Positions 14,178 through 34,580 of a stretch of DNA of 34,778 bases are shown here, in pieces. Positions within the stretch are counted from its first letter, which is position 1, and every line of letters starts with the position of its first letter. This stretch comes from a bacterium. GTDB taxonomy: Bacteria; Patescibacteriota; Gracilibacteria; Peribacterales; Peribacteraceae. The DNA lies in contig JAQBVR010000011.1 of the NCBI GenBank assembly GCA_027623015.1, positions 1-34,778 on the forward strand. Reading direction: 5' to 3'. Made by a program: the position numbers and the translations under genes. The notes under the pieces are model-generated. The model did no database searches and was not told the origin of the DNA. It was given only the letters and a program-made list of their open reading frames with translations.

Positions 14178-15668
14178 ATGAATACACTGCTAACCATAGG
14201 CCTAATACTCGCGGCGAGTATTTCCCAGCTTCTCACACTCATAACGCTCTGGCAGCTTAAAGAATGGCGTATCGACCGTCTATATGAGCATCTCAGACGT
14301 GAAGGTACTCTTGGCATCCTCTTTGGGAGGATCCGACCTGTATTGCTAATCGTGCTATTTTCAAAGCCCGAAATCCTTCTACCGGCACTAGCAGTTCTCA
14401 ACCTCATTCAGATACTCCTACGCAAGCAACGATTCCCTGTTTGGACGAGTAAGGCAATGGCTATCACATTGCTCTCTATCGGAATTACAATTATAACCTC
14501 TTTTGGGATTTGGGATTTGGGATTTGGGATTTGGAATTTAGTACCGTTTGTTCAACCTATAATTATTACTTTGGCATGGACAACACTAGTCCCCCTAGAC
14601 ATCTACTTAAAGAGACGCATACTCAAAAGAGCAAAAGCTGTCCGCTCTTTACACCCAGACATCACGGTGATCGGTATAACCGGAAGTGTTGGGAAAACAA
14701 CGACAAAACAACTACTAAGTCACATACTTTCAGATCAAGACATCGCGACTACTCCTGCATATGTCAATGCAGAAATAGGAGTCGCCAGATGGATTATCGG
14801 TACATTGGAAGCCAAGAACTGCCCTAAATATCTTATCTGTGAGATGGGAGCATACCGAAAAGGAGAGATCGCATTGTTGTGTGATACTGTCCAACCAACC
14901 ATCGGTATCGTCACATTTATCGGAACACAACACATCGCTCTTTTTGGATCTCAGCGTGCACTTTGTGAAGCAAAAGCAGAACTGATCAAGTCCTTACCAA
15001 AAGATGGACATGCATTTGTAAATAACGACAGTGCTCTCTGTGCAAATATGGCTGAGCAAAGTCCTTGTCCCACTACAACAGTCGGCACAGGTGGACATGC
15101 GGACATTGAAGCATTTGGTATAGAAGAAACAAGTACAGGGATACGTTTCACGACACATAATACTGTATTTATACTCTCCCTCCATGGAACACAGAACGTC
15201 ACAAATGTGCTACTTGCCATTGCGACAGCAAGTCACCTCGGGCTCGAATACAAAGATATCGCAAACAAACTTCGTACATTTACGCCACCGGAGCATACAT
15301 TTTCTGTGCGCAAGGAAGGCAATTGCACAATCTTGGATGACACACACAACGCAAGTCCCGAGAGCTTCAAGTCCGCTCTAACTTGGGCACGAAGCCAGCC
15401 TATTGAAAACAAAGTCCTCCTATCAGCAGGTCTTATAGAGCTCGGGGCAGAACAAGATCGTATCTGCAATGAGCTCGGTGCCTTGGCATCTCAAATATGC
15501 GATAGAGTGATCTTTACGACTGCAAAGGCTGCAGAACCCTTCGCAAAACACTTAGACTCCTATGAAGTCGTACAGAAAGATACGAAGCCTGTCCCCGACC
15601 AATCTCTTGTACTCTGTATAGGGAGGATGAAACAATCAACCATACAACAAGTAACAAGTAACGCGTAA
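14178..15668 (+). CDS. murF: membrane-anchored MurF-type Mur ligase
   Basis: A 496-residue protein. The N-terminal 165 residues hold about four to five hydrophobic segments, which is unusual because MurF is normally soluble. A Mur ligase follows: ATP loop TGSVGKTTTK (about 168-177), YLICEMGAYRKGEI, IGTQHIALFGS, NNDSAL, and C-terminal DDTHNASPESF, typical of MurF. MurF joins D-Ala-D-Ala to the UDP-MurNAc-tripeptide. Membrane attachment may bring it near MraY or the femX-type enzyme two genes on. A heptamer array is inserted in the membrane region. The last codons and the TAA lie in another array. Another Mur-ligase-like role is possible, since the substrate is not proven. Confidence 0.78.
   Translation: MNTLLTIGLILAASISQLLTLITLWQLKEWRIDRLYEHLRREGTLGILFGRIRPVLLIVLFSKPEILLPALAVLNLIQILLRKQRFPVWTSKAMAITLLSIGITIITSFGIWDLGFGIWNLVPFVQPIIITLAWTTLVPLDIYLKRRILKRAKAVRSLHPDITVIGITGSVGKTTTKQLLSHILSDQDIATTPAYVNAEIGVARWIIGTLEAKNCPKYLICEMGAYRKGEIALLCDTVQPTIGIVTFIGTQHIALFGSQRALCEAKAELIKSLPKDGHAFVNNDSALCANMAEQSPCPTTTVGTGGHADIEAFGIEETSTGIRFTTHNTVFILSLHGTQNVTNVLLAIATASHLGLEYKDIANKLRTFTPPEHTFSVRKEGNCTILDDTHNASPESFKSALTWARSQPIENKVLLSAGLIELGAEQDRICNELGALASQICDRVIFTTAKAAEPFAKHLDSYEVVQKDTKPVPDQSLVLCIGRMKQSTIQQVTSNA
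14502..14532 (+). repeat. heptamer array (TTTGGGA) inside the MurF-type gene
   Basis: Four exact TTTGGGA units plus a partial one encode FGIWDLGFGIWNL between two hydrophobic segments. Confidence 0.92.
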
Positions 15669-15669
15669 C
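15647..15669 (+). repeat. heptamer array (AACAAGT/AACGCGT) at the MurF stop
   Basis: Repeated ACAAGTA/ACGCGTA words with period 7 belong to the AACGAGY family. The stop codon TAA (15666-15668) lies inside the array, so the repeat supplies the C-terminus QVTSNA. Confidence 0.75.
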
Positions 15670-15677
15670 ACGAATCT

Positions 15678-16907
15678 ATGTACCCCATCCATCACACCTT
15701 CGCGCCTCACGTAACACTACGATATTGCCTGAGCGTACTATGTATTCTCTTGCAGCCGTGGACTTGGTACCGAGAAACGTCCGTTGAGCAATTACGATTG
15801 GCTATTGCAAAAGATCTACGGGGAGATGTGGCACTCTTCTCCTCTGGTCGCGATGCTCTCCTTGCTCTCCTACGAGCGCTGGAGCTTACATCCGGAGCAG
15901 AGGTGATCATTCAAGCCTATACCTGTGTTGTTGTACCAAATGCGGTACAAGCTGCAAATGGTTCACCAATCTATGCAGACATAAACCGCAATTCCCTAAA
16001 CATCGACCCAGAAGCAGTAAAAAGAGCTATCACACACCGTACGCGAGCAGTCATCTGCCAGCATACATTTGGTATACCTGCAGATACTACTACGCTACGA
16101 AAGATTTGTGATGAACATAATATTCTCCTCATAGAAGACTGTGCGCACATCATTCCAGATAGGAAAGGTCCAGAAGGCATCGGTACTGTAGGAGATGCAA
16201 TGGTCCTAAGCTTTGGGCGAGACAAGGCGATCTCCAGTATCAGCGGTGGAGCTGCTGTCGTACGAGATGCAGCAATAGCTTCTGCACTAGCAAAAGAAGA
16301 AGAGCTCGCAATCAACATGAAATGGTATCATCTAGCCAAACTTCTGTTTTACCCACTCATCTATACGAAGGCAAAGCCGCTCTTTGGCATGGGTATTGGC
16401 AAAGCGTATCTCGTTCTCTGTAAAGCAATACACATGATACCCCCTGTAGTAACATCTGCAGAAAAAGCAGGGCAGATCTCCTCCCCTGTATTACAGAAGC
16501 TTCCTCATGCTCTGGCTACGATTGCAAGTAGTCAGTGGGCACAACGTGAGCAGATAAACGACCATCGACGCAATATCGTAGCGCTCTACGCAGAAGCATT
16601 TTCTGATGTGCACGTTTCGAAAGACCTTCCTTTGCAGAAGTTTCCATTGCTTACACAACATGCTGTAGAGATTCGAAAAACACTCAAAAAGAAAAACATC
16701 CACCTCGATGATGGCTGGGCAGGTTGTACTATTTGCCCCAGAAATGTTAGCACCGATGCGATCAACTATATCCCTGGTAGTGCCACCCAAGCAGATCGTG
16801 TGGGCAAGCAGATCCTCTCACTCCCCACACACCCCACGATGACTCTGAAACAAGCCAAAAGGCTCATAGCTGAATTGCAACGATTTCCATCGCTGAAACA
16901 GCAATAA
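15678..16907 (+). CDS. DegT/DnrJ/EryC1/StrS-type PLP aminotransferase
   Basis: A 409-residue fold-type I PLP enzyme. FSSGRDALLALLRAL (about 54-68) is the phosphate-binding region, LIEDCAH carries the PLP-nitrogen Asp (about 154), and LSFGRDKAISSISGG carries the probable Schiff-base Lys (about 183). Family members aminate keto sugars for glycans; some act on other carbonyls. It begins 9 bp after the murF-type gene and ends 18 bp before the FemX-type gene, so it is probably part of one envelope operon and may make an amino sugar or cross-bridge amine. The N-terminal 30 residues are hydrophobic and unusual. The substrate is unknown. Confidence 0.82.
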   Translation: MYPIHHTFAPHVTLRYCLSVLCILLQPWTWYRETSVEQLRLAIAKDLRGDVALFSSGRDALLALLRALELTSGAEVIIQAYTCVVVPNAVQAANGSPIYADINRNSLNIDPEAVKRAITHRTRAVICQHTFGIPADTTTLRKICDEHNILLIEDCAHIIPDRKGPEGIGTVGDAMVLSFGRDKAISSISGGAAVVRDAAIASALAKEEELAINMKWYHLAKLLFYPLIYTKAKPLFGMGIGKAYLVLCKAIHMIPPVVTSAEKAGQISSPVLQKLPHALATIASSQWAQREQINDHRRNIVALYAEAFSDVHVSKDLPLQKFPLLTQHAVEIRKTLKKKNIHLDDGWAGCTICPRNVSTDAINYIPGSATQADRVGKQILSLPTHPTMTLKQAKRLIAELQRFPSLKQQ

Positions 16908-16925: not shown

Positions 16926-18002
16926 ATGGACATCATACATGCCACAGATCAAGAACAATGGGACAGCTTCCTCAGTACACAAACGTATCGTCCATTTCTC
17001 CAAAGCTGGACGATGGGAGAGGTGTACAGAAGCACAGGGCAAGACCCATTGCGACTACAGGTAATGGATGATGGAAAGATTGTAGGAATCTGCCAAGCGA
17101 TAGTCGTTCCAGCGAGAAGAGGACGTCATCTTGCCATTCATTACGGACCTATACTGTCGAAGACAGATGAGCAAACAGTCTCCGCGTTGATCTCCGCGTT
17201 GAAAGATGAAGCACAGGAGTACAACTGTAGCTTTGTTCGCATGAGTCCTTTTTGGATAGCAGATACTGCCATCGCAATGCCAAATACAAAAGCATCTCCT
17301 TTGCACCTACTAGCAGAACATCTCTGGTATATACCGCTAACAACCCCGAGTCTCTGGTCAGATGAAAAAACGAGTAACGAGCAACGAGTAACCAGTAACG
17401 AGTCAGATCTCATGATTGGCATGCGGAAAAATACGAGAAATCTCATCCGTCGGGCAGAAAAAGAAGGAGTGACTATCAAACGATGTAGCGATCCTCTCGC
17501 AAACCTAGAGCCATTTATCGCTCTGCATGAAGAAACACGGAGACGACATAAGTTCACGCCGTATACAAATGCGTTTTTTAGAGCACAGGTAGAGCACTTC
17601 TCCGCTCGCAATGAATGTACGATGTACCAAGCATGGTACAACAATGAAGTCATCGCATCGTCGATACACATGCATGCTTTTGGTGAAACCAGTTACCACC
17701 ACGGTGCAAGTACGCACAAATACGACAAGATCCCTGCAAGCTATCTACTCCAATGGACTGCGATCACCGATGCTCTCAAGCGTGGTGACCATGTGTACAA
17801 CTTCTGGGGTATAGCGCCAGTGATAGACAAAGAAAATGGCATGAGAGATAGAAATCATCCTTTCGCTGGTGTCACAACATTTAAAACAGGATTTGGTGGA
17901 GAGCTTCTCGAACTGACACACTGCAAAGACATACCAGTGAACAACAAGTACTATGCCACGCGTGCACTGGAGATAGTACGCAAATGGAAACGGGGGTTTT
18001 GA
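16926..18002 (+). CDS. FemX/FemAB-family aminoacyl transferase
   Basis: A 358-residue protein with the double-GNAT architecture of FemABX enzymes. The N-terminal part has FLQSWTMGEVYRSTGQ and HYGPIL. MRKNTRNLIRRAEKEGVTI (about 163-181) marks the start of the second half. SSIHMHAFGETSYHHGAS and VYNFWGIAP (about 300) are C-terminal family motifs. These enzymes use aminoacyl-tRNA to add cross-bridge residues to peptidoglycan precursors, here possibly on the product of the MurF-type enzyme upstream. A heptamer insertion at residues 149-160 sits between the two halves. The stop codon overlaps the first bases of the 18001-18101 repeat. Confidence 0.85.
   Translation: MDIIHATDQEQWDSFLSTQTYRPFLQSWTMGEVYRSTGQDPLRLQVMDDGKIVGICQAIVVPARRGRHLAIHYGPILSKTDEQTVSALISALKDEAQEYNCSFVRMSPFWIADTAIAMPNTKASPLHLLAEHLWYIPLTTPSLWSDEKTSNEQRVTSNESDLMIGMRKNTRNLIRRAEKEGVTIKRCSDPLANLEPFIALHEETRRRHKFTPYTNAFFRAQVEHFSARNECTMYQAWYNNEVIASSIHMHAFGETSYHHGASTHKYDKIPASYLLQWTAITDALKRGDHVYNFWGIAPVIDKENGMRDRNHPFAGVTTFKTGFGGELLELTHCKDIPVNNKYYATRALEIVRKWKRGF
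17369..17403 (+). repeat. heptamer array (AACGAGY) inside the FemX-type gene
   Basis: Five units: AACGAGT, AACGAGC, AACGAGT, AACCAGT, AACGAGT. They encode TSNEQRVTSNES, almost the same peptide as the array at 1784 in murD2. Confidence 0.92.
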
Positions 18003-22704: not shown

Positions 22705-25185
22705 ATGTCACCAAAAAACATCAAACAAGAGCTGGCTCAAAAAGCAAAACAACAGAAGCGTAAGGGGGCGTTTATGCTCGCTCTCGATGAGCTACTTGGC
22801 GTAAAGAAAGATGTGCGAGAATCTGTGGTCTCCAACAAGGTTGGTAAGACGCGTGTAAAACAATCAAAACTCACCCCAGAAGAACGCGAAGCCCTGAAAC
22901 ACTACGAAGAAGGTATCCAAAAGACGCTCGACATCATCGCACCTGCAGCTATAGAAGTGAAGCGTAATGAGATCATTCTCAACAACCTGCACGCACGAAC
23001 ATACTTCGTCTACAACTGGCCCGCATACATCTTCCCGAACTGGCTATCGCCTACCATCAACTACGATGCGGAGATGGACATAGCTCACTACATCTACCCT
23101 GTAAATAACAAGGCAATCATGAAAATGTTACGAAAGAAAGTTGCAGAAATGCGTTCATCTATTCGTATGCTTGAGCAACGTGGTGTTGTTCGGGATCCTG
23201 GACTAGAAGCAGCGCTACAAGATGCAGAAGAGCTTCGTGACCTACTCGCCCGCGGACAAGAGAAACTGTATCAATTTGGTATGTACATTACGATATATAC
23301 CGATGACGAAGATAAGCTTAAGAAAATGGAAGCAGACCTTGAGTCTCTCCTCGGTGGAAAACTTGTGATGACAAAACCTGCGATGTTCCAGATGGAACAC
23401 GCATGGATCTCTACACTTCCCTTCTGCCAAGATGAACTAGAGATCAGTAGAAACATGAACACGAGTCCACTTGCGACAAGCTTTCCGTTTACCAGCTCTG
23501 ACCTAACAGATGACCATGGAATTCTCTACGGAATCAACAGACACAATGATAGTTTAGTCATCTTTGATCGGTTCGATCTCGCAAATGCAAACGCGACAGT
23601 CTTTGCAACATCTGGTGCTGGTAAATCCTTTACCGTAAAACTAGAAATCTTACGATCAATGATGTTAAACACTGAGGTCTTTGTTATCGACCCAGAAAAT
23701 GAATACGTAGAACTTGCAAAAACAGTAGGAGGAACATTTATTCCTATGTCACTGCAAAGTAGTAACTGCATCAACCCATTTGACCTACCCGAAGCTGTGC
23801 GTGGAGCAGATGCAAAAACTGGAGAAGTGCTTCGTTCAGCTGTCATCAATCTACATGGACTATTCAAACTCATGCTCGGCACTCTAACTCCCGCTGAAGA
23901 TGGAATCCTCGACAAAGCAATCCTCGACACATACGCACTCAAAGACATTCATCTCGAAACTGAGGAACCAGGAAAACTAGAGCCACCGACAATGCATGAA
24001 CTTGTCGATGTTTTGATGACCACAGATGGTGGAGAAAGCATGGCACAAACTCTCCAAAAGTATACTGATGGAAGCTATGCCGGACTCTTTAACAAGCGAA
24101 CAAATGTCGACCTTTCAAACCAGTTAGTTGTTTTCCAAATTCGTGATCTCGAAGAAGTGCTCAGGCCTACAGCGATGTATATCGTCCTTAACTTTCTGTG
24201 GAATCGGATCCGTGCTGACATGAAACGTCGATACCTAGTCATCGACGAGGCATGGAACCTTATGCAGCACGACGACTCTGCGAAGTTTCTCTATGGACTC
24301 ATCAAACGAGCACGTAAGTACTACCTTGGTGTGACGACGATCACGCAGGATGTAGAAGACTTTGTAAATTCACCGTATGGAAAACCAATTGTAACAAATG
24401 CACAAATGACCGTGCTACTGAAGCAATCCCCCACCGCTGTCGACAACCTCCAGAAACTCTTCTACCTTACAGACGGAGAAAAGTATCTTCTTCTCAACTC
24501 CGACGTAGGACAAGGGCTCTTCTTTGCTGGAAATAAGCATGTAGCAATCCAGATCATCGCAAGTCCAGAAGAAGAATCCATAATCAGTACAAAACCACAA
24601 GATGCAGAGAAGAACGAAGAGGCTCGAGAGTCTAACAAAGGAGATGCCGCTAAAGCCAAAGATGCTAAGGATGCTAAGGATGCAAAAGATGCAGAAAATG
24701 CAGAAAATGCAAAAGATGCAAAAGATGCATTAGCCCAAACAGAACTGTTGAGTATGTCAAAGAAAAAAGATGAACCAAAGGTAGAGGACGATGTAGCAGA
24801 AGAAGATAATCCTGCTTCAGATGCAGATCTTACATTGGCTCCAGAGCCAGAAGAAGAGATAGAAGAATCGAAAGATGCTTCATCTGAAGAGGAAGACCAG
24901 GAAAAGATAAAAAATTTAGATCCAATTGATCACAATGAACAAAACGAAAAACAAAGGAAAGAAAACGATGAATCTCGAGCTAAAAGTTTTATCGAACCCC
25001 ATACCCCCAGCTCACAAGCTACGACTCCCAACCCTGAACCAGAACCTCTTCCAGAAGATCCGCTCGACGCTATTGACCCTGTAGAAGATGTAACATCAGC
25101 ACCGAACTCCATGTACTCCATGAGAGATAATCCATCACCTACAGCTTCCGAAGAAGAGAGCGAGGACGAAGACAAAGCGCAGTAA
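22705..25185 (+). CDS. VirB4/TraC-type conjugation ATPase
   Basis: 826 residues. An N-terminal VirB4-like region is followed by Walker A TSGAGKSFTVK (about 303-313), VFVIDPENEYVELAK, Walker B YLVIDEAWNLM (about 509-519), and GVTTITQDVEDFVNS with NAQMTVLLKQSP, all typical of VirB4/TraC hexameric ATPases that power type IV secretion or pilus assembly. From about residue 625 a 200-residue acidic, low-complexity tail begins, with a KDA repeat (650-677) and Pro/Glu/Asp-rich stretches; VirB4 proteins normally lack this. VirB2-like proteins are at 31055-32461, but no VirB3, VirB6, VirB8, VirB10 or coupling protein is seen. It ends 1 bp before the convergent nrnA-like gene. Confidence 0.88.
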   Translation: MSPKNIKQELAQKAKQQKRKGAFMLALDELLGVKKDVRESVVSNKVGKTRVKQSKLTPEEREALKHYEEGIQKTLDIIAPAAIEVKRNEIILNNLHARTYFVYNWPAYIFPNWLSPTINYDAEMDIAHYIYPVNNKAIMKMLRKKVAEMRSSIRMLEQRGVVRDPGLEAALQDAEELRDLLARGQEKLYQFGMYITIYTDDEDKLKKMEADLESLLGGKLVMTKPAMFQMEHAWISTLPFCQDELEISRNMNTSPLATSFPFTSSDLTDDHGILYGINRHNDSLVIFDRFDLANANATVFATSGAGKSFTVKLEILRSMMLNTEVFVIDPENEYVELAKTVGGTFIPMSLQSSNCINPFDLPEAVRGADAKTGEVLRSAVINLHGLFKLMLGTLTPAEDGILDKAILDTYALKDIHLETEEPGKLEPPTMHELVDVLMTTDGGESMAQTLQKYTDGSYAGLFNKRTNVDLSNQLVVFQIRDLEEVLRPTAMYIVLNFLWNRIRADMKRRYLVIDEAWNLMQHDDSAKFLYGLIKRARKYYLGVTTITQDVEDFVNSPYGKPIVTNAQMTVLLKQSPTAVDNLQKLFYLTDGEKYLLLNSDVGQGLFFAGNKHVAIQIIASPEEESIISTKPQDAEKNEEARESNKGDAAKAKDAKDAKDAKDAENAENAKDAKDALAQTELLSMSKKKDEPKVEDDVAEEDNPASDADLTLAPEPEEEIEESKDASSEEEDQEKIKNLDPIDHNEQNEKQRKENDESRAKSFIEPHTPSSQATTPNPEPEPLPEDPLDAIDPVEDVTSAPNSMYSMRDNPSPTASEEESEDEDKAQ
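24650..24730 (+). repeat. 9-bp coding repeat in the VirB4 tail
   Basis: About nine in-frame units of GCN-AAR-GAT type (Ala-Lys-Asp, some Ala-Glu-Asn). Slipped-strand length variation is plausible. Confidence 0.88.
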
Positions 25186-26596: not shown

Positions 26597-26600
26597 AGAA

Positions 26601-26717
26601 GACCGAAAAGATGTAGAAGACTAAAAAGACTGAAAGGAATGTAGCATATCAATCCATTCAATTATAAATCTTTCTCCTTTTAGTCCTTTCAGTCGTCTAA
26701 GTCCTTTCAGTCCTTAC
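26601..26717. repeat. nonamer-array hairpin between rbfA and fmt
   Basis: The left arm 26601-26636 has four 9-base units (GACCGAAAA, GATGTAGAA, GACTAAAAA, GACTGAAAG). The right arm has AGTCCTTTC, AGTCGTCTA, AGTCCTTTC, AGTCCTTAC at 26682-26717. The arms are mutually complementary: GACTGAAAGGA (26628-26638) pairs with either TCCTTTCAGTC at 26684 or 26702. It fills most of the divergent gap. Confidence 0.85.
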
Positions 26718-26727
26718 AAGAGAAGGT

Positions 26728-26733
26728 TAGAAT
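26728..26733 (+). promoter_or_regulatory. -10-like box of fmt
   Basis: TAGAAT, 7 nt before ATG 26741, directly after the repeat island. Confidence 0.5.
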
Positions 26734-26740
26734 CTTACTA

Positions 26741-27598
26741 ATGCCCATTACAATAGTTTTTGCTGGCACACCCGAGTTTGCAGTCCCTTCACTGCAAGCA
26801 TTGATAGACGATGACGCCTTTGAGGTAGTTTGTGTCATCACACAGCCAGATAAGCCAATAGGCAGAAAGAGGGTTATCACCCCATCTCCAGTAAAAGTAC
26901 TAGCGGAAGAAGCAGGCATCCTCATCTGGCAACCAGGCAATATAAACGAAGAATGGGCAGATCGACCCTGTGTAGAGCCTCCAGACTTCCTTGTTGTTGC
27001 TGCATATGGCCAACTTTTGACACAAGAGATCCTCGACTTCCCTTCCATCGCTCCTGTGAACGTCCATGCATCACTCCTTCCACTCTGGAGAGGTGCCGCT
27101 CCGATCCATCATGCGATTCTCCATGGTGACAGCGAAACAGGAGTCACGATTCAACGCATGGTACGGAAGCTAGACCAAGGGCCCATATTGCATCAGGCAT
27201 CTATAAGCATCCATGACCAAGAGCATACAGGCGCTCTCTACGATCGTCTATCACACCTTGGTGCTACCACTCTTATAGACACACTAAAAGCTCCTCTGAC
27301 ACCAGTAGAACAGGCTAACAACAACGCGACATTTTGCACTAAGCTCAAACGCAGTGATGGCATCGTGGACCCAACGACCATGACTGCACAACAAATAGAT
27401 CGTCATGTCCGTGCACTTATTCCGTGGCCAGGAGTAACATGCACTATCGGTGATACGACTATCAAGATACTTGAAACAACACTGGAAGAATCACCAGATG
27501 CATACGATTTACTTTGCAAAGACGATACACATCTCTCTATTACCAAGCTACAAGTGCCAGGGAAAAAACCCACTAAGGGTTCTGAGTGGAGCGCTTAA
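26741..27598 (+). CDS. fmt: methionyl-tRNA formyltransferase
   Basis: 285 residues. The N-terminal formyltransferase domain starts ITIVFAGTPEFAVPSLQAL, has the folate-site signature NVHASLLPLWRGAAPIHHAI (about 106-125, with the Asn and His of the catalytic set) and GDSETGVTI, which carries the Asp. A short C-terminal OB-like domain follows (IPWPGVTCTIG). It formylates initiator Met-tRNA using 10-formyl-THF. It is somewhat shorter than typical homologues of about 310 residues, mostly at the C-terminus. Confidence 0.95.
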   Translation: MPITIVFAGTPEFAVPSLQALIDDDAFEVVCVITQPDKPIGRKRVITPSPVKVLAEEAGILIWQPGNINEEWADRPCVEPPDFLVVAAYGQLLTQEILDFPSIAPVNVHASLLPLWRGAAPIHHAILHGDSETGVTIQRMVRKLDQGPILHQASISIHDQEHTGALYDRLSHLGATTLIDTLKAPLTPVEQANNNATFCTKLKRSDGIVDPTTMTAQQIDRHVRALIPWPGVTCTIGDTTIKILETTLEESPDAYDLLCKDDTHLSITKLQVPGKKPTKGSEWSA

Positions 27599-27612
27599 TA
27601 TTTTATTATAAA

Positions 27613-27690
27613 CAGGATAAGTAATACGAGGAATAAAGGAAATAAGGGGCTCACTTATTTCTCTTATTTCACTTATTACCCTTATTTCCC
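27613..27690. repeat. nonamer-array hairpin before the TSP3/SLH gene
   Basis: The left arm 27613-27648 includes GAATAAAGG and AAATAAGGG. The right arm 27652-27687 is CACTTATTT, CTCTTATTT, CACTTATTA, CCCTTATTT. GGAAATAAGGG pairs with CCCTTATTTCC. It occupies nearly the whole gap after fmt. Confidence 0.88.
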
Positions 27691-27696
27691 TAAAAT
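27691..27696 (+). promoter_or_regulatory. -10-like box of the TSP3/SLH gene
   Basis: TAAAAT, 7 nt before ATG 27704, abutting the repeat island. Confidence 0.45.
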
Positions 27697-27703
27697 AATA
27701 AAG

Positions 27704-28957
27704 ATGAAACTACTTCTGACACTACTTCTCATAAGTTCGACTGCCTTCGCTCAGTCTACTGAGAGCATCGACACCGATGGAGATGGGCTTCTAGACCGTG
27801 AAGAAGATGTAAACGCTAATCTCATCTTCGATGACGGAGAAACAAATCTTTTCGATGCCGATACGGACGATGGGGGTGAAGCAGATGGTGCAGAGATACG
27901 TGCTGGTCGCGACCCTCTCAATCGCATAGACGACATCACGTTCGACCTTGATGGAGATGGCTTAAACAATGGACAAGAATATAAACTAGGCACAGACCCC
28001 GCAAAAGCAGACTCAGACGGTGATGGATCTGATGACAAGACAGACCCTTTTGCTCTCGATTCTCGCTACAGCCAAGACCTCGATGGAGATGGGCTACCCG
28101 ATGAATATGAAGCACTCCATGGACTCGATAATACAAACCCAAATGATGCCACTAGAGACACAGATAATGACGGACTCAATACCGTAGAAGAATTTATCTA
28201 CGAGACAGATATGCTAGACGCAGATACAGACAATGATGGTATCAACGATGGTACAGAAGTAGAAAATGGAACAGACCCTCAAGAAAACCCCTGCTTGATG
28301 TATGGTGGAGTAGGCACACCATTTGCAGACATAGAAGATCACTGGGGAAAAGACTTCATCACCCATATAGACCAGATTCGCGCTAAACCTACAGGTGCAC
28401 ACCTCATAGAAGGAGAAACTCAAATTGATCGTGAAGTTTTTATTCCCGATGAGAACATCACACGATACGAACTTCTCCGAATGATCCTTCTAGGAAGTTG
28501 TGTACCGTTAATAAATGATACAGAAAGTATCGGTATCGAATTCCGTGACTTCTCTCCAAGGTCTCGTCCACGAGAAAGCACAGACCGTAGTATCAAAAGA
28601 CAGATCATCTACACTGCTACATCACTAGGTATCATCCAAGGATACAAAGACGGCACCATTCAGCCTGATGCAACGATAAACCGTGCAGAAGCGATGAAGA
28701 TACTCATACTAGCATCACAACTCCAACCGCTCGACGACCCCTACGCCTCCAGTACATTTAGCGATGTACCAAAAGATGCTTGGTTTGAACCCTTTATACG
28801 ACAAATGGTAGAGTATGCGATCATCGATGGTTACGGAGATGGAACTATTCGCCCAGGCAATAACATCACACGAGCAGAAGCAAGTAAGATCGTTCTCCTC
28901 ATCATCATCAGCAACCCCCACGTCAACGGATATGTCATCCCTGCAGAAGAATTATAG
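27704..28957 (+). CDS. secreted Ca2+-binding (TSP3-type) and SLH-domain surface protein
   Basis: 417 residues. The signal peptide ends STAFAQS (about 18). Residues 20-195 carry thrombospondin-type-3-like calcium repeats, with units such as DTDGDGLLDREED, DLDGDGLNNGQE, DSDGDGSDDKTD and DTDNDGINDGTE. Residues 205-410 hold SLH repeats: FADIEDHWGKDFI, GYKDGTIQPDATINRAEA, FSDVPKDAWFEPFI and GYGDGTIRPGNNITRAEA. It is probably a wall-anchored adhesive or structural protein. It is a second SLH protein beside the one at 5609, with a different N-terminal domain. Nonamer islands with the same CCCTTATTT word flank it on both sides. Confidence 0.9.
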   Translation: MKLLLTLLLISSTAFAQSTESIDTDGDGLLDREEDVNANLIFDDGETNLFDADTDDGGEADGAEIRAGRDPLNRIDDITFDLDGDGLNNGQEYKLGTDPAKADSDGDGSDDKTDPFALDSRYSQDLDGDGLPDEYEALHGLDNTNPNDATRDTDNDGLNTVEEFIYETDMLDADTDNDGINDGTEVENGTDPQENPCLMYGGVGTPFADIEDHWGKDFITHIDQIRAKPTGAHLIEGETQIDREVFIPDENITRYELLRMILLGSCVPLINDTESIGIEFRDFSPRSRPRESTDRSIKRQIIYTATSLGIIQGYKDGTIQPDATINRAEAMKILILASQLQPLDDPYASSTFSDVPKDAWFEPFIRQMVEYAIIDGYGDGTIRPGNNITRAEASKIVLLIIISNPHVNGYVIPAEEL

Positions 28958-28962
28958 ATTTG

Positions 28963-28998
28963 AGAAATAAGGGAATTCCCTTATTTCCCTTATTTCTC
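28963..28998. repeat. nonamer repeat and perfect 24-bp palindrome after the TSP3/SLH gene
   Basis: 28964-28987 is a perfect palindrome centred on GGGAATTCCC. Two CCCTTATTT units at 28978-28995 match those at 27679. An alternative hairpin pairs 28962-28972 with 28988-28998. It may act as a bidirectional terminator between convergent genes. Confidence 0.85.
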
Positions 28999-29003
28999 GT
29001 AGA

Positions 29004-29321
29004 TTACACGTGACTTTTCATCTCGGTGAATGCCTGGATGAACTGATCGAGGTCCTCTGCATCAAACATGATAGTCGTCTTCTGACCACCGCGAGACTTC
29101 TCCGATAGCTTGAAGAACTTACCGTGACCAGACTCCTTCAGGTCGATGTAAAATGTGCGCTGACGAGCGTGGATAGTTGCTGAGTGAAGCTCAGAAGCGT
29201 AACTGCCTCCACCGCCACCGCCGCCACCGCCACTACTACTACGTACAGGAGGAGGGGAAGAAGCTGGACTGTCATCAGAGATACCTCCATCATCTGAAAG
29301 TTCTGACATAGGATCAAACAT
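29004..29321 (-). CDS. PUR-domain-like (PurA/BpuR-type) nucleic-acid-binding protein
   Basis: 105 residues from ATG 29321; the longer frame to 29471 overlaps metG and has no family similarity. An acidic Ser/Pro-rich N-terminus and a run of nine glycines (about 30-38) lead to a C-terminal PUR repeat: RTFYIDLKESGHGKFFKLSE, then KTTIMFDAEDLDQFIQAF. Single-PUR bacterial proteins such as Borrelia BpuR bind DNA and RNA and regulate expression. The flexible Gly linker is unusual. It lies 86 bp downstream of metG on the same strand. The identification is by recalled motif. Confidence 0.72.
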   Translation of the reverse strand: MFDPMSELSDDGGISDDSPASSPPPVRSSSGGGGGGGGGSYASELHSATIHARQRTFYIDLKESGHGKFFKLSEKSRGGQKTTIMFDAEDLDQFIQAFTEMKSHV

Positions 29322-29406
29322 AATAATATGTGGAAAATAAGTAGGGTTGCCTCTCCGGTGCTTTGCACTTGCGACGAATCTTGTCTTTTCGACTTTTCCG
29401 TCTCTT

Positions 29407-30945
29407 CTAAGAAAGAGGCGGAAAGAGGATAGACGGCTCACCAATAGTTTGCCAATCCTTTTGTCCACCAAATTCTTTCATCTGCTCTGTGATCACAAAA
29501 TCTTTCTCTAACATTGATTTGGCATAGGGTACTCCGAGCTGTTTCGCTATAGCCTGCGCAGTCTGAGGTACGAAGGGCAGAAGCATAAGCGATACATGAC
29601 GAAGGGATTCAGCAAATCTCGAAAGAAGTGTCACCTTCTCTTCACCTTCCAATGTCCAAGGTTTCGTAGTGTCGATAGCACCATTGAGGACATCTACCAG
29701 TGCCAGTGCCTGCTGGATACCATTGTGTACTTCAAAACTGTCCATAGACTCTCCAAATTTTTTCCATCCATCCTCCGCTTGTGTCGTATCAGATGGCGAA
29801 TCAGGAATGGCTATCTTGCCTCCTTCTTTTTGAATCAAGATAAGAACACGATTGAGTAGATTACCAAGTGCATTACGCATTCTTGCATCATAGAGCTTCT
29901 CAAAACGATCCCAAGAGAAGTCACCATCACTACCTACTGAGATCTCATGACTTAAGTAAAACCGAATAGGATCTGGATTACCATCAAACTTTTCAAGTAC
30001 ATCATCTGGAACAACTACGTTCCCCGTAGACTTACTCATCTTCTGTCCTTCACTAGTGAGAAATCCATGAATAAGTAACTCATCTGGCGTTCGCACTCCT
30101 ACATGCTTCAGCATACTTGGCCAGATAAGCGCGTGAAAACGTGCGATGTCTTTACCAATAACATGTGTAACCGTAGCATCATCCCACCACTCTCTCTCCT
30201 CGTGATCTGTGAATAATCCCAAACCAGAAATATAGTTCGTGAGAGCATCACACCAGACATACATGGTGTGTTCATCATCCTCAGGAACTGGGATACCCCA
30301 ATCGAGAGATGACTTCGGACGAGAGAATGAAACATCTTCCAATCCTTGATCAAGCAAAGCCAATGTTTCCTTCTCACGATTATTGGGAATTATTCTGTAT
30401 GACTCTCCATCCCATTCTTTCGTCAGAAGGTTTTTTAAGTTCTCCGTGTCTTTACTCATCAGGAAAAAATAATTCTCTTCTTCTACCTCCTCAGGAGCTA
30501 CTTGATGATTTGGACAGATGCCATCTGTAAGATCCCGAGCAGTCATGAACCGTTCACACCCACTACAATACAAACCCTTATAACTGCGCTTTTCTAGCAT
30601 TCCCGCATCGGCAAGCTTCTTCCAAATCACCTGAACAGTAGGCCAATGAACCTTTTGATCTGTCGTACGGATAAAAAGATCATGCGAGATCTGCAAACGA
30701 TCATATAAACCCGTAAATAATTCTACGTTTCGATCTGCCAATTCTTGTGGTGTCACACCTTCTTTGTCCGCAGCTCTTTGCATCTTCGTACCATGCTCAT
30801 CTGTACCAATCTGAAATCGCACGTCATCCCCCTTCAGGCGAAACCACCGTGCACAGACATCTGCAAGTACCTTCTCAAGTACATGCCCCATGTGTGGAGC
30901 CGCATTTGGATAATCGATAGCCGTAGTGATGTATCGCCGAGACAT
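29407..30945 (-). CDS. metG: methionyl-tRNA synthetase
   Basis: 512 residues. The class I HIGH motif is in PNAAPHMGHVLEKVLAD (about 14-30). The connective peptide has one zinc knuckle, YCSGCERF, with a second CPNH half. KMSKSTGNVV (about 300) is the KMSKS loop, and the anticodon-binding helix bundle follows (HVSLMLLPFVPQTA). The C-terminal EMAP-like dimerisation domain of some MetG proteins is absent, as in compact forms. TAAGAT ends 6 nt before the ATG and overlaps a nonamer island upstream. Confidence 0.96.
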   Translation of the reverse strand: MSRRYITTAIDYPNAAPHMGHVLEKVLADVCARWFRLKGDDVRFQIGTDEHGTKMQRAADKEGVTPQELADRNVELFTGLYDRLQISHDLFIRTTDQKVHWPTVQVIWKKLADAGMLEKRSYKGLYCSGCERFMTARDLTDGICPNHQVAPEEVEEENYFFLMSKDTENLKNLLTKEWDGESYRIIPNNREKETLALLDQGLEDVSFSRPKSSLDWGIPVPEDDEHTMYVWCDALTNYISGLGLFTDHEEREWWDDATVTHVIGKDIARFHALIWPSMLKHVGVRTPDELLIHGFLTSEGQKMSKSTGNVVVPDDVLEKFDGNPDPIRFYLSHEISVGSDGDFSWDRFEKLYDARMRNALGNLLNRVLILIQKEGGKIAIPDSPSDTTQAEDGWKKFGESMDSFEVHNGIQQALALVDVLNGAIDTTKPWTLEGEEKVTLLSRFAESLRHVSLMLLPFVPQTAQAIAKQLGVPYAKSMLEKDFVITEQMKEFGGQKDWQTIGEPSILFPPLS

Positions 30946-30951
30946 GGCTCT

Positions 30952-30957
30952 ATCTTA
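30952..30957 (-). promoter_or_regulatory. -10-like box of metG
   Basis: TAAGAT on the minus strand, 6 nt before the ATG at 30945. Confidence 0.5.
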
Positions 30958-31046
30958 AGGAACAAGAGGAGAGAAAGGAACAAAAAGAACTAGATGAGTT
31001 CGCCTGCGTCTTTTTGATCTTTTAGTTCATGTAGATCCTTTAGATC
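30957..31046. repeat. nonamer-array hairpin between the VirB2-like operon and metG
   Basis: The left arm units are AAGGAACAA, GAGGAGAGA, AAGGAACAA, AAAGAACTA, GATGAGTTC (30957-31001). The right arm units are TTTTTGATC, TTTTAGTTC, ATGTAGATC, CTTTAGATC (31011-31046). The arms are loosely complementary. Confidence 0.8.
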
Positions 31047-31054
31047 TTCTGCCC

Positions 31055-33800: not shown

Positions 33801-34580
33801 TCATATACCGTAAAACTTCTCTGCATTCTCTGTAGTAGCCTTTGCTACTTCTTCGAGAGCTATCCCCTTCACCTCTGCGATACACTTTGCAACTTCTATT
33901 ACAAACGCAGGCTCATTGCGCTTTCCTCTATATGGAATAGGCGCAAGGTACGGCGCATCTGTCTCGATCATCATCTGCTTAAGAGGACACTCTGCAATCG
34001 TTCTTCGGATCTCTTCAGACTTCGGATACGTAGCGATACCTGTAAACGACAAAAGGCATCCTCTATCAACTACCCAAGACACATCTTCCCACTTCTCCGT
34101 ACAGCAATGGATGACAAACATAGGTGGATCGATGCGCTCAATAATTTCACGTACATCGACCATTGATTCCCTGCAATGGATGACTGCAGGAATATTTAAC
34201 TCTTTGGCTATCTTCAACTGCTCTTCAAAAACAGATCTTTGCACGTCTCGAGGAGAATTATCGTAATGATAGTCCAACCCGATCTCCCCAATGGCGACAA
34301 CTTTTGGTGAAGAGGAGACAAGTTTCAACATCATATCCCTACTCCCTACTCCCGACTCCCGACTCCCTGACCCCCACGCGCTAGCGTGATGCGGATGCAC
34401 CCCTACTGTACAAAATATGTGTTCATACTTTTCAGCTATCTGTAGACAATCTTTAGCCTCAGGTAGTGAATCAGCTATACAGACCATCTTAGCTACCCCA
34501 GCCTCCCCTGCACGCTCAATAACGGCATCCAGATCTTTGGAAAACTGCTTGTCTGCGAGGTGGCAATGGGAATCTATCAT
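33801..34580 (-). CDS. tatD: TatD-family metal-dependent DNase
   Basis: 259 residues with the TIM-barrel amidohydrolase-type metal site: DSHCHLA (3-9), GVHPHHA (about 60), GEIGLDYHYD (about 98-107), VIHCRE (about 133), FVIHCC (about 155) and ETDAPYLAP (about 206-214). It is a 3'-5' exonuclease involved in DNA repair or turnover. Length is normal for the family, but residues about 68-80 (WGSGSRESGVGSRD) are an extra loop made by a heptamer array. TAGAAT lies 6 nt before the ATG. Confidence 0.95.
   Translation of the reverse strand: MIDSHCHLADKQFSKDLDAVIERAGEAGVAKMVCIADSLPEAKDCLQIAEKYEHIFCTVGVHPHHASAWGSGSRESGVGSRDMMLKLVSSSPKVVAIGEIGLDYHYDNSPRDVQRSVFEEQLKIAKELNIPAVIHCRESMVDVREIIERIDPPMFVIHCCTEKWEDVSWVVDRGCLLSFTGIATYPKSEEIRRTIAECPLKQMMIETDAPYLAPIPYRGKRNEPAFVIEVAKCIAEVKGIALEEVAKATTENAEKFYGI
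34334..34375 (-). repeat. heptamer array (GGGAGTM) inside tatD
   Basis: Plus-strand units TATCCCT, ACTCCCT, ACTCCCG, ACTCCCG, ACTCCCT, GACCCCC. They encode SGSRESGVGSRD between the GVHPHHA and GEIGLDYH motifs, where TatD homologues have a short loop. Confidence 0.9.

Follow-up and report, generated by a model that had tools for sequence, protein, structure and literature searches.

Convergent tandem-word arrays in the intergenic spacers of a Peribacteraceae bacterium

Introduction

The contig JAQBVR010000011.1 of the Peribacteraceae assembly GCA_027623015.1 (Patescibacteriota, Gracilibacteria) was analyzed over its positions 1 to 34,778, and this whole stretch of 34,778 nucleotides is called the window below. 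Between positions 26601 and 31046, four gene gaps are occupied by islands of 9-bp units that face inward from both sides of the spacer, which gives each island the look of a large hairpin. The islands belong to a genome-wide family of convergent arrays with a fixed polarity, and the hairpin look is probably a by-product. The genes around them encode, according to Pfam, a DHH phosphoesterase, rbfA, fmt, an S-layer/TSP3 protein, a PUR-domain protein, metG and three type IV secretion pilins. The closest relatives of metG are found in Candidatus Peribacter / Peregrinibacteria (68-78% identity). An Rfam search of the window returned four tRNAs only and no curated RNA family at the islands. The features are as follows.

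26601-26638, plus strand: purine arm of island 1, units of the GACTAAAAA GACTGAAAG type
26675-26717, minus strand: pyrimidine arm of island 1, CTTTTAGTC CTTTCAGTC and further units; the island makes up almost the whole divergent rbfA/fmt gap
27621-27646, plus strand: purine arm of island 2, word GAAATAAGG
27654-27690, minus strand: pyrimidine arm of island 2, word CCTTATTTC
28962-28975, plus strand: purine arm of island 3, within a 46-bp convergent gap
28979-28998, minus strand: pyrimidine arm of island 3, two CCCTTATTT units, the inner one an alternative partner for the left arm
29004-29471, minus strand: PUR-domain gene (Pfam; purine-rich nucleic-acid binding), a candidate binder only
30952-30988, plus strand: degenerate purine arm of island 4, GAACAAGAG, GAACAAAAA
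31009-31045, minus strand: degenerate pyrimidine arm of island 4, GATCTAAAG, GAACTAAAA (as read on the minus strand)

The Four Islands

A preliminary description of this DNA had proposed that the four gaps consist of 9-base units arranged as hairpins. The periodicity holds for all of them. The fraction of matching bases at lag 9 was 0.51 in the spacer of island 1 (26597-26740; 0.27 in shuffles), 0.55 in that of island 2 (27599-27703; 0.30), 0.62 in that of island 3 (28958-29003; 0.25) and 0.51 in that of island 4 (30946-31054; 0.26), each with p = 0.002 against 500 dinucleotide-preserving shuffles per spacer. The same shuffles served for the best ungapped inverted-repeat score, which reached 20.4, 15.9, 14.0 and 14.4 in islands 1-4, while the shuffle means lay at 5.7-8.0 (p = 0.002-0.004). 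Thus, inverted repeats are present in all four. As RNA, islands 1-3 fold better than shuffles (z -2.6 to -5.1); for island 4 the two strands gave z -0.87 and +0.29, no better than shuffled sequence. The preliminary description is therefore correct apart from island 4, which is degenerate.

The paired portions are 26601-26638/26675-26712 in island 1, which lies in a divergent gap, and 27621-27646/27654-27679 in the co-directional island 2. In the convergent island 3, segments 28962-28975 and 28985-28998 are complementary at 14 of 14 positions and the right side carries an additional nonamer. Island 4 (30952-30988/31009-31045, co-directional) pairs at 73% and is a decayed example of the class. 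In a blind scan of the window over lags 4-30, nearly all multi-unit arrays fell at lag 7, lag 9 or a multiple of either; one run at lag 6 lay outside this set.

A Genome-Wide Family With Two Periods

The source genome comprises 1.10 Mb in 46 contigs. The autocorrelation that the preliminary description had suggested was computed for the pooled spacers of a 286-kb sample: its main maxima are lag 9 (z 10) and lag 7 (z 8.8), and most of their multiples stand out less strongly. Genome-wide counts refer to a 616-kb set of stretches, which is 56% of the genome. Here, a stricter detector found arrays or tandem-armed hairpins of period 9 or 7 in about 60 spacers and a looser one in 81 of 307 oriented spacers, i.e., in about 26% of gene gaps, which bears out the idea of a repeat family. 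The units run head to tail, are mainly intergenic and are amplified genome-wide, as in other intergenic repeats of short tandem words (5-11 nt).

Nonamer words include GAAATA+RRR and GACTGA+RRR (R, purine; N, any base), among others, and follow the scheme RRRGA+NNNN, which describes them better than the consensus 'loosely GANNTAAAG' given before. The word said to be common to the two islands flanking the gene 27704-28957 is indeed common to both and recurs throughout the genome: the pattern RRRGAAATARRRGAAATARRRG has 40 matches versus 1 in the reversed control, and it is present in 15 of 74 family members. For comparison we used genome G018 and its congener G066, whose orthologous proteins are on average 82-83% identical, and genome G081. 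The GACTCA/GACTGA pattern has 101 matches in G018 and 9 in G066, a lineage-specific amplification. Spacers contain 23 RRRGANNNN arrays of at least three units in the source genome, 33 in G018 and 10 in G081, and 0-2 at periods 8 and 10. The reversed scheme, as a control, gives 5 in G018 and 11 in the source genome, whose excess by this loose count is thus about twofold. In 1.23 Mb of DNA from other phyla, no such array lay in a spacer. Across the phylum, a strict CGCAGATT-family pattern, too strict even for the genome's own copies, matched 0 of 240 genomes, and in a phylum sample a three-unit RRRGAAATA pattern matched 1 of 116, the source genome itself.

The preliminary description overlooked the heptamers, of which GTTRTAR, GTTCTGT and AAATCCC are examples, as well as the fixed polarity and the whole-word replacement in orthologous spacers. 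Within the window, the stretches 1782-1841, 14479-14560, 15620-15678, 17347-17421 and 34311-34389 are heptamer arrays or resemble them (ATTTGGG, GTAACGA, others), and some overlap called genes; they represent the period-7 counterpart of the islands. A nonamer array also runs in frame through a VirB4/TraG-like gene (24651-24728), where it encodes (AKD)n, and RRRGATGCW, which has the scheme of the spacer nonamers, fits many of its units. In stretches L217, L218 and L219 of G081, tandem-armed hairpins reach about 29 per 100 kb, a density biased upwards because the regions were picked around word matches, and AACC/ATCC, AATA and GTAAGGTA nonamers lie adjacent. A purine-first nonamer hairpin with AAAGAGTTC-type units on a Nitrospirae contig (L087:1055-1179) is a hint of the nonamer class in other phyla.

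Polarity and Gene Orientation

In the data sets examined, the purine arm comes first in 34 of 34 nonamer hairpins, and in 27 of 27 arm pairs with a defined word (five words, under a different definition; the two sets overlap) the purine arm precedes the pyrimidine arm. Non-tandem hairpins of the same and other genomes display no such bias (9 vs 8 and 14 vs 13). Because the structure is symmetric, the rule holds for both strands, and the units always face into the spacer. Among the heptamers, each word has a single polarity in the observed cases, and no base rule is common to the words; G exceeds C in the first arm of 41 of 49. The idea that pyrimidine arms spare start codons from false Shine-Dalgarno sites was dropped, as the layout is the reverse in the AAATCCC heptamer.

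The arrays are indifferent to the orientation of the neighboring genes. By the looser detector they occupy 14 of 55 convergent (25%), 49 of 183 tandem (27%) and 18 of 69 divergent spacers (26%; chi-square p = 0.98), and islands in G018 do not differ by spacer orientation either (chi-square p 0.61). This agrees with the preliminary view that they are not classical terminators.

Unit Memory and Arm Matching

Neighboring nonamers do not resemble each other more than distant ones. Among exact-core units of the source genome, identity in the RRR columns is 0.494 within an arm, 0.500 with the other arm and 0.484 with other islands; the values for G018 are 0.534, 0.582 and 0.584. In extension units, for which an exact core was not required, the purine columns are 84-93% purine and G4 is conserved at 88-93%, while conservation of A5 is 95% in G018 and 62% in the source genome. 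Most nonamer variation, though not all of it, therefore falls in certain columns, and the variants come from a single pool common to the whole genome. Since neighbors and partners are no more alike than other units, the nonamers bear no trace of recent unit duplication or arm-to-arm copying, which does not support the earlier suggestion that islands grow by unit duplication, as far as the recent past is concerned.

Active maintenance of arm complementarity, also suggested before, is not borne out: the RRR columns pair between arms at chance, and permutation found no matched unit order (permuting the units would cost an exact copy 13 score units and costs the nonamer arms 0.65, with limited power at 2-4 units per arm). 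For heptamers the exact-copy power check of this permutation failed; their neighbors are slightly similar (0.41 vs 0.31 and 0.44 vs 0.38).

Word Replacement in Orthologous Spacers

Among 27 comparable orthologous spacers of G018 and G066, arrays occur in both genomes in 12, in one in 4 and in neither in 11 (Fisher p = 0.0003; presence scored by eye and spacer length not controlled). Where both carry arrays, the word is kept in 5 and changed in about 7, one of which also changes period. A nonamer hairpin (GTAAGGTAG) at L165:19234-19340 corresponds to a heptamer hairpin (CGAATTA) at L205:4887-4994, the two spanning 107 and 108 bp. One heptamer is replaced by another at L207:4646-4788 and L210:2827-2971, and the island L207:19331-19458 faces a 14-bp gap in the ortholog.

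The preliminary description had proposed comparing strains for unit number and compensatory change. Unit number does differ between species, as in L165:1376-1626 vs L204:1472-1611, which have word and loop in common. On compensatory change the outcome is divided: arms keep the same word, and between L165:11920-11994 and L204:16750-16808 one T-A pair has become G-C, but another pair there is broken and the purine columns, as noted, pair at chance.

Possible Origins of the Arrays

Our leading explanation, which we hold tentatively and at somewhat less than even probability, is that the islands are convergent tandem-word arrays forming a DNA-level intergenic repeat family, written by aberrant repair-type synthesis, with the hairpin mainly a by-product. 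Units of 9 bp (RRRGA+NNNN, the word common to many islands of a genome) or 7 bp face inward from both spacer sides (-> -> -> <- <- <-). In this view, a break or a stalled fork would expose 3' ends in the spacer, and aberrant synthesis would append the word to the exposed ends on both sides. The extended ends would then be joined and the arrays rewritten over time. The arrays are tolerated in spacers and mostly not in genes, and a host function need not be assumed. Addition from both sides followed by joining would account for the purine-first, pyrimidine-last order on both strands, the unequal arms, the single arms and the unrelated loops; from these features we infer the writing of words onto 3' ends. 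A cell activity that writes genome-specific words onto spacer 3' ends, by healing breaks in the manner of telomeres or by some other template-directed addition, would leave inward arrays in each healed spacer and words and periods succeeding each other; we rate this form as rather improbable.

Several points weigh against synthesis at spacer ends. No writing enzyme was identified. The loop is conserved between L165:1376-1626 and L204:1472-1611, so that the arms there flank old spacer sequence and not a fresh junction. The tendency of arrays to recur in the same spacers of the congeners (12/4/11, p = 0.0003) could reflect selection. Moreover, synthesis alone leaves random RRR purines beside fixed columns unexplained, which recognition by a factor would explain.

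The main rival to the writing mechanism is accordingly a binding-site code, in which a nucleic-acid-binding factor would recognize every unit as a degenerate site, the word being fixed and the purines free, and the sites are arranged convergently. Variation mostly in purine-class columns and the missing unit memory are what sites under a common constraint predict. RRRGA is purine-rich, and the gene of the candidate factor, the PUR-domain protein (29004-29471), has island 3 on one side and island 4 on the other. Bpur, its relative in Borrelia, binds purine-rich RNA with a dissociation constant of 13 nM; it prefers such RNA and single-stranded DNA to the complementary sequence and can part the two strands of DNA (PMC3764826). 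Yet the PUR gene, found at metG or within the sampled loci, is also present in relatives with few or no arrays and does not track array abundance, for which reason the protein was marked down as its driver; several unrelated words and two periods within one genome, together with word turnover between congeners, also speak against a code. On balance we regard it as serious but unlikely. The protein itself is a bacterial Pur-alpha relative; it contains a Gly-rich linker, and in Peribacteria relatives its gene is likewise found next to metG. It seems improbable that the islands work as RNA hairpins that terminate transcription in both directions or insulate the transcripts of neighboring genes, although islands 1-3 fold better than shuffles, the 46-bp convergent gap contains island 3 only, and one orthologous convergent spacer has a canonical terminator in G018 and a heptamer array in G066. 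Canonical T-run terminators also look scarce in the source genome, with 2 in 41 island-free convergent spacers by the strict scan. Against this stand the missing convergent enrichment and divergent depletion, the lack of a folding signal in island 4 and the stem mismatches on the transcribed strand. In co-directional spacers oriented by their genes, G-T and A-C mismatches are equally frequent (36 vs 34; 25 vs 25), and because selected pairing should favor G-U, nothing points to selection for RNA pairing. A generic scan for a G+C-rich stem with a T-run marked island 3 once and no other island, at background level (18 sites vs 16 expected), and a stricter scan found almost none in island spacers.

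No better placed are slippage-born simple repeats whose second arm arose by foldback copying, a reading that takes in the earlier proposal of growth by duplication. The units are in tandem, their number differs between species and heptamer neighbors are slightly similar, but slippage should make neighbors most alike, which nonamers are not and heptamers are only weakly; the random purine columns are uncorrelated between neighbors, the arms lack a matched unit order and foldback does not predict a single polarity. Least probable is a mobile hairpin element of the repetitive extragenic palindrome (REP)/REPIN type or resembling a miniature inverted-repeat transposable element, spreading as a unit. 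One word does occur in many dispersed copies, and whole islands are gained or lost, as at L207:19331-19458. A conserved element with shared internal sequence was not found, however: loops of same-word islands differ in length, from a few to 90 bases, and in sequence. REPINs depend on RAYT, and the Y1 transposase/RAYT family PF01797 has no match in the genome, while control genomes give matches. Similarity searches with island 1 against plasmids and with a G018 island against phages returned no match. Separately, a family of capped palindromes, TGTCTGAACCRCAGATT...ATCTGYGGTTCAGACA enclosing CGCAGATTN nonamers, occurs at L004:12863-13119, L015:3972, L139:1712-1857, L140:18582, L148:2668-3083 and L148:17688-17866. 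Unlike those of the islands, its outer ends are conserved, and it may therefore be a true mobile element.

Relation to Known Repeats and Implications

The closest known system is that of the convergent GGGAATC heptamer pairs of Xanthomonas, with 70 and 75 pairs near open reading frame (ORF) ends and differences in length and sequence between two species (Rehm et al., 2015, PMC4692102). Both systems comprise degenerate intergenic tandem units in convergent pairs that vary between related species, and arrays that lie near the ORF situated on the 5' side of the array. In contrast, the parts of that report considered here describe a single G-rich heptamer word and G-quadruplex studies, and report neither nonamers nor word or period replacement in orthologs nor a test of unit memory (PMC4692102). 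The TAACTGA repeats of marine Beggiatoaceae and cyanobacteria likewise consist of a short tandem word between genes that was amplified in one lineage and is common to distant phyla, but they lie mostly in a single orientation directly upstream of start codons, with 1 inverted case in 170 sets (PMC4679880). Cyanobacterial short tandemly repeated repetitive sequences and long simple sequence repeats, in which heptamers are most abundant, resemble the period-7 intergenic class; the arrays described here differ in having a second period, of 9, in the convergent pairing and in a degeneracy limited to certain columns. This comparison relies on the two preceding papers as citing sources (PMC4679880, PMC4692102). 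REP/REPIN sequences are dispersed intergenic inverted repeats as well, without tandem words. In the literature searched, we found no account of the scheme of the nonamers, of the polarity statistics, of units that lack memory or of word replacement, and no known bacterial repeat class fully explains the arrays.

Arrays of this kind occupy about a quarter of the gene gaps of a 1.1-Mb genome. Their fixed polarity, missing neighbor memory and word replacement are not predicted by slippage, terminators or mobile palindromes, and the system can therefore discriminate a writing mechanism from a binding-site code. Polarity and neighbor memory together also provide a general test that can be applied to the heptamer repeats of Xanthomonas, Nostoc and Beggiatoaceae, which are poorly understood.

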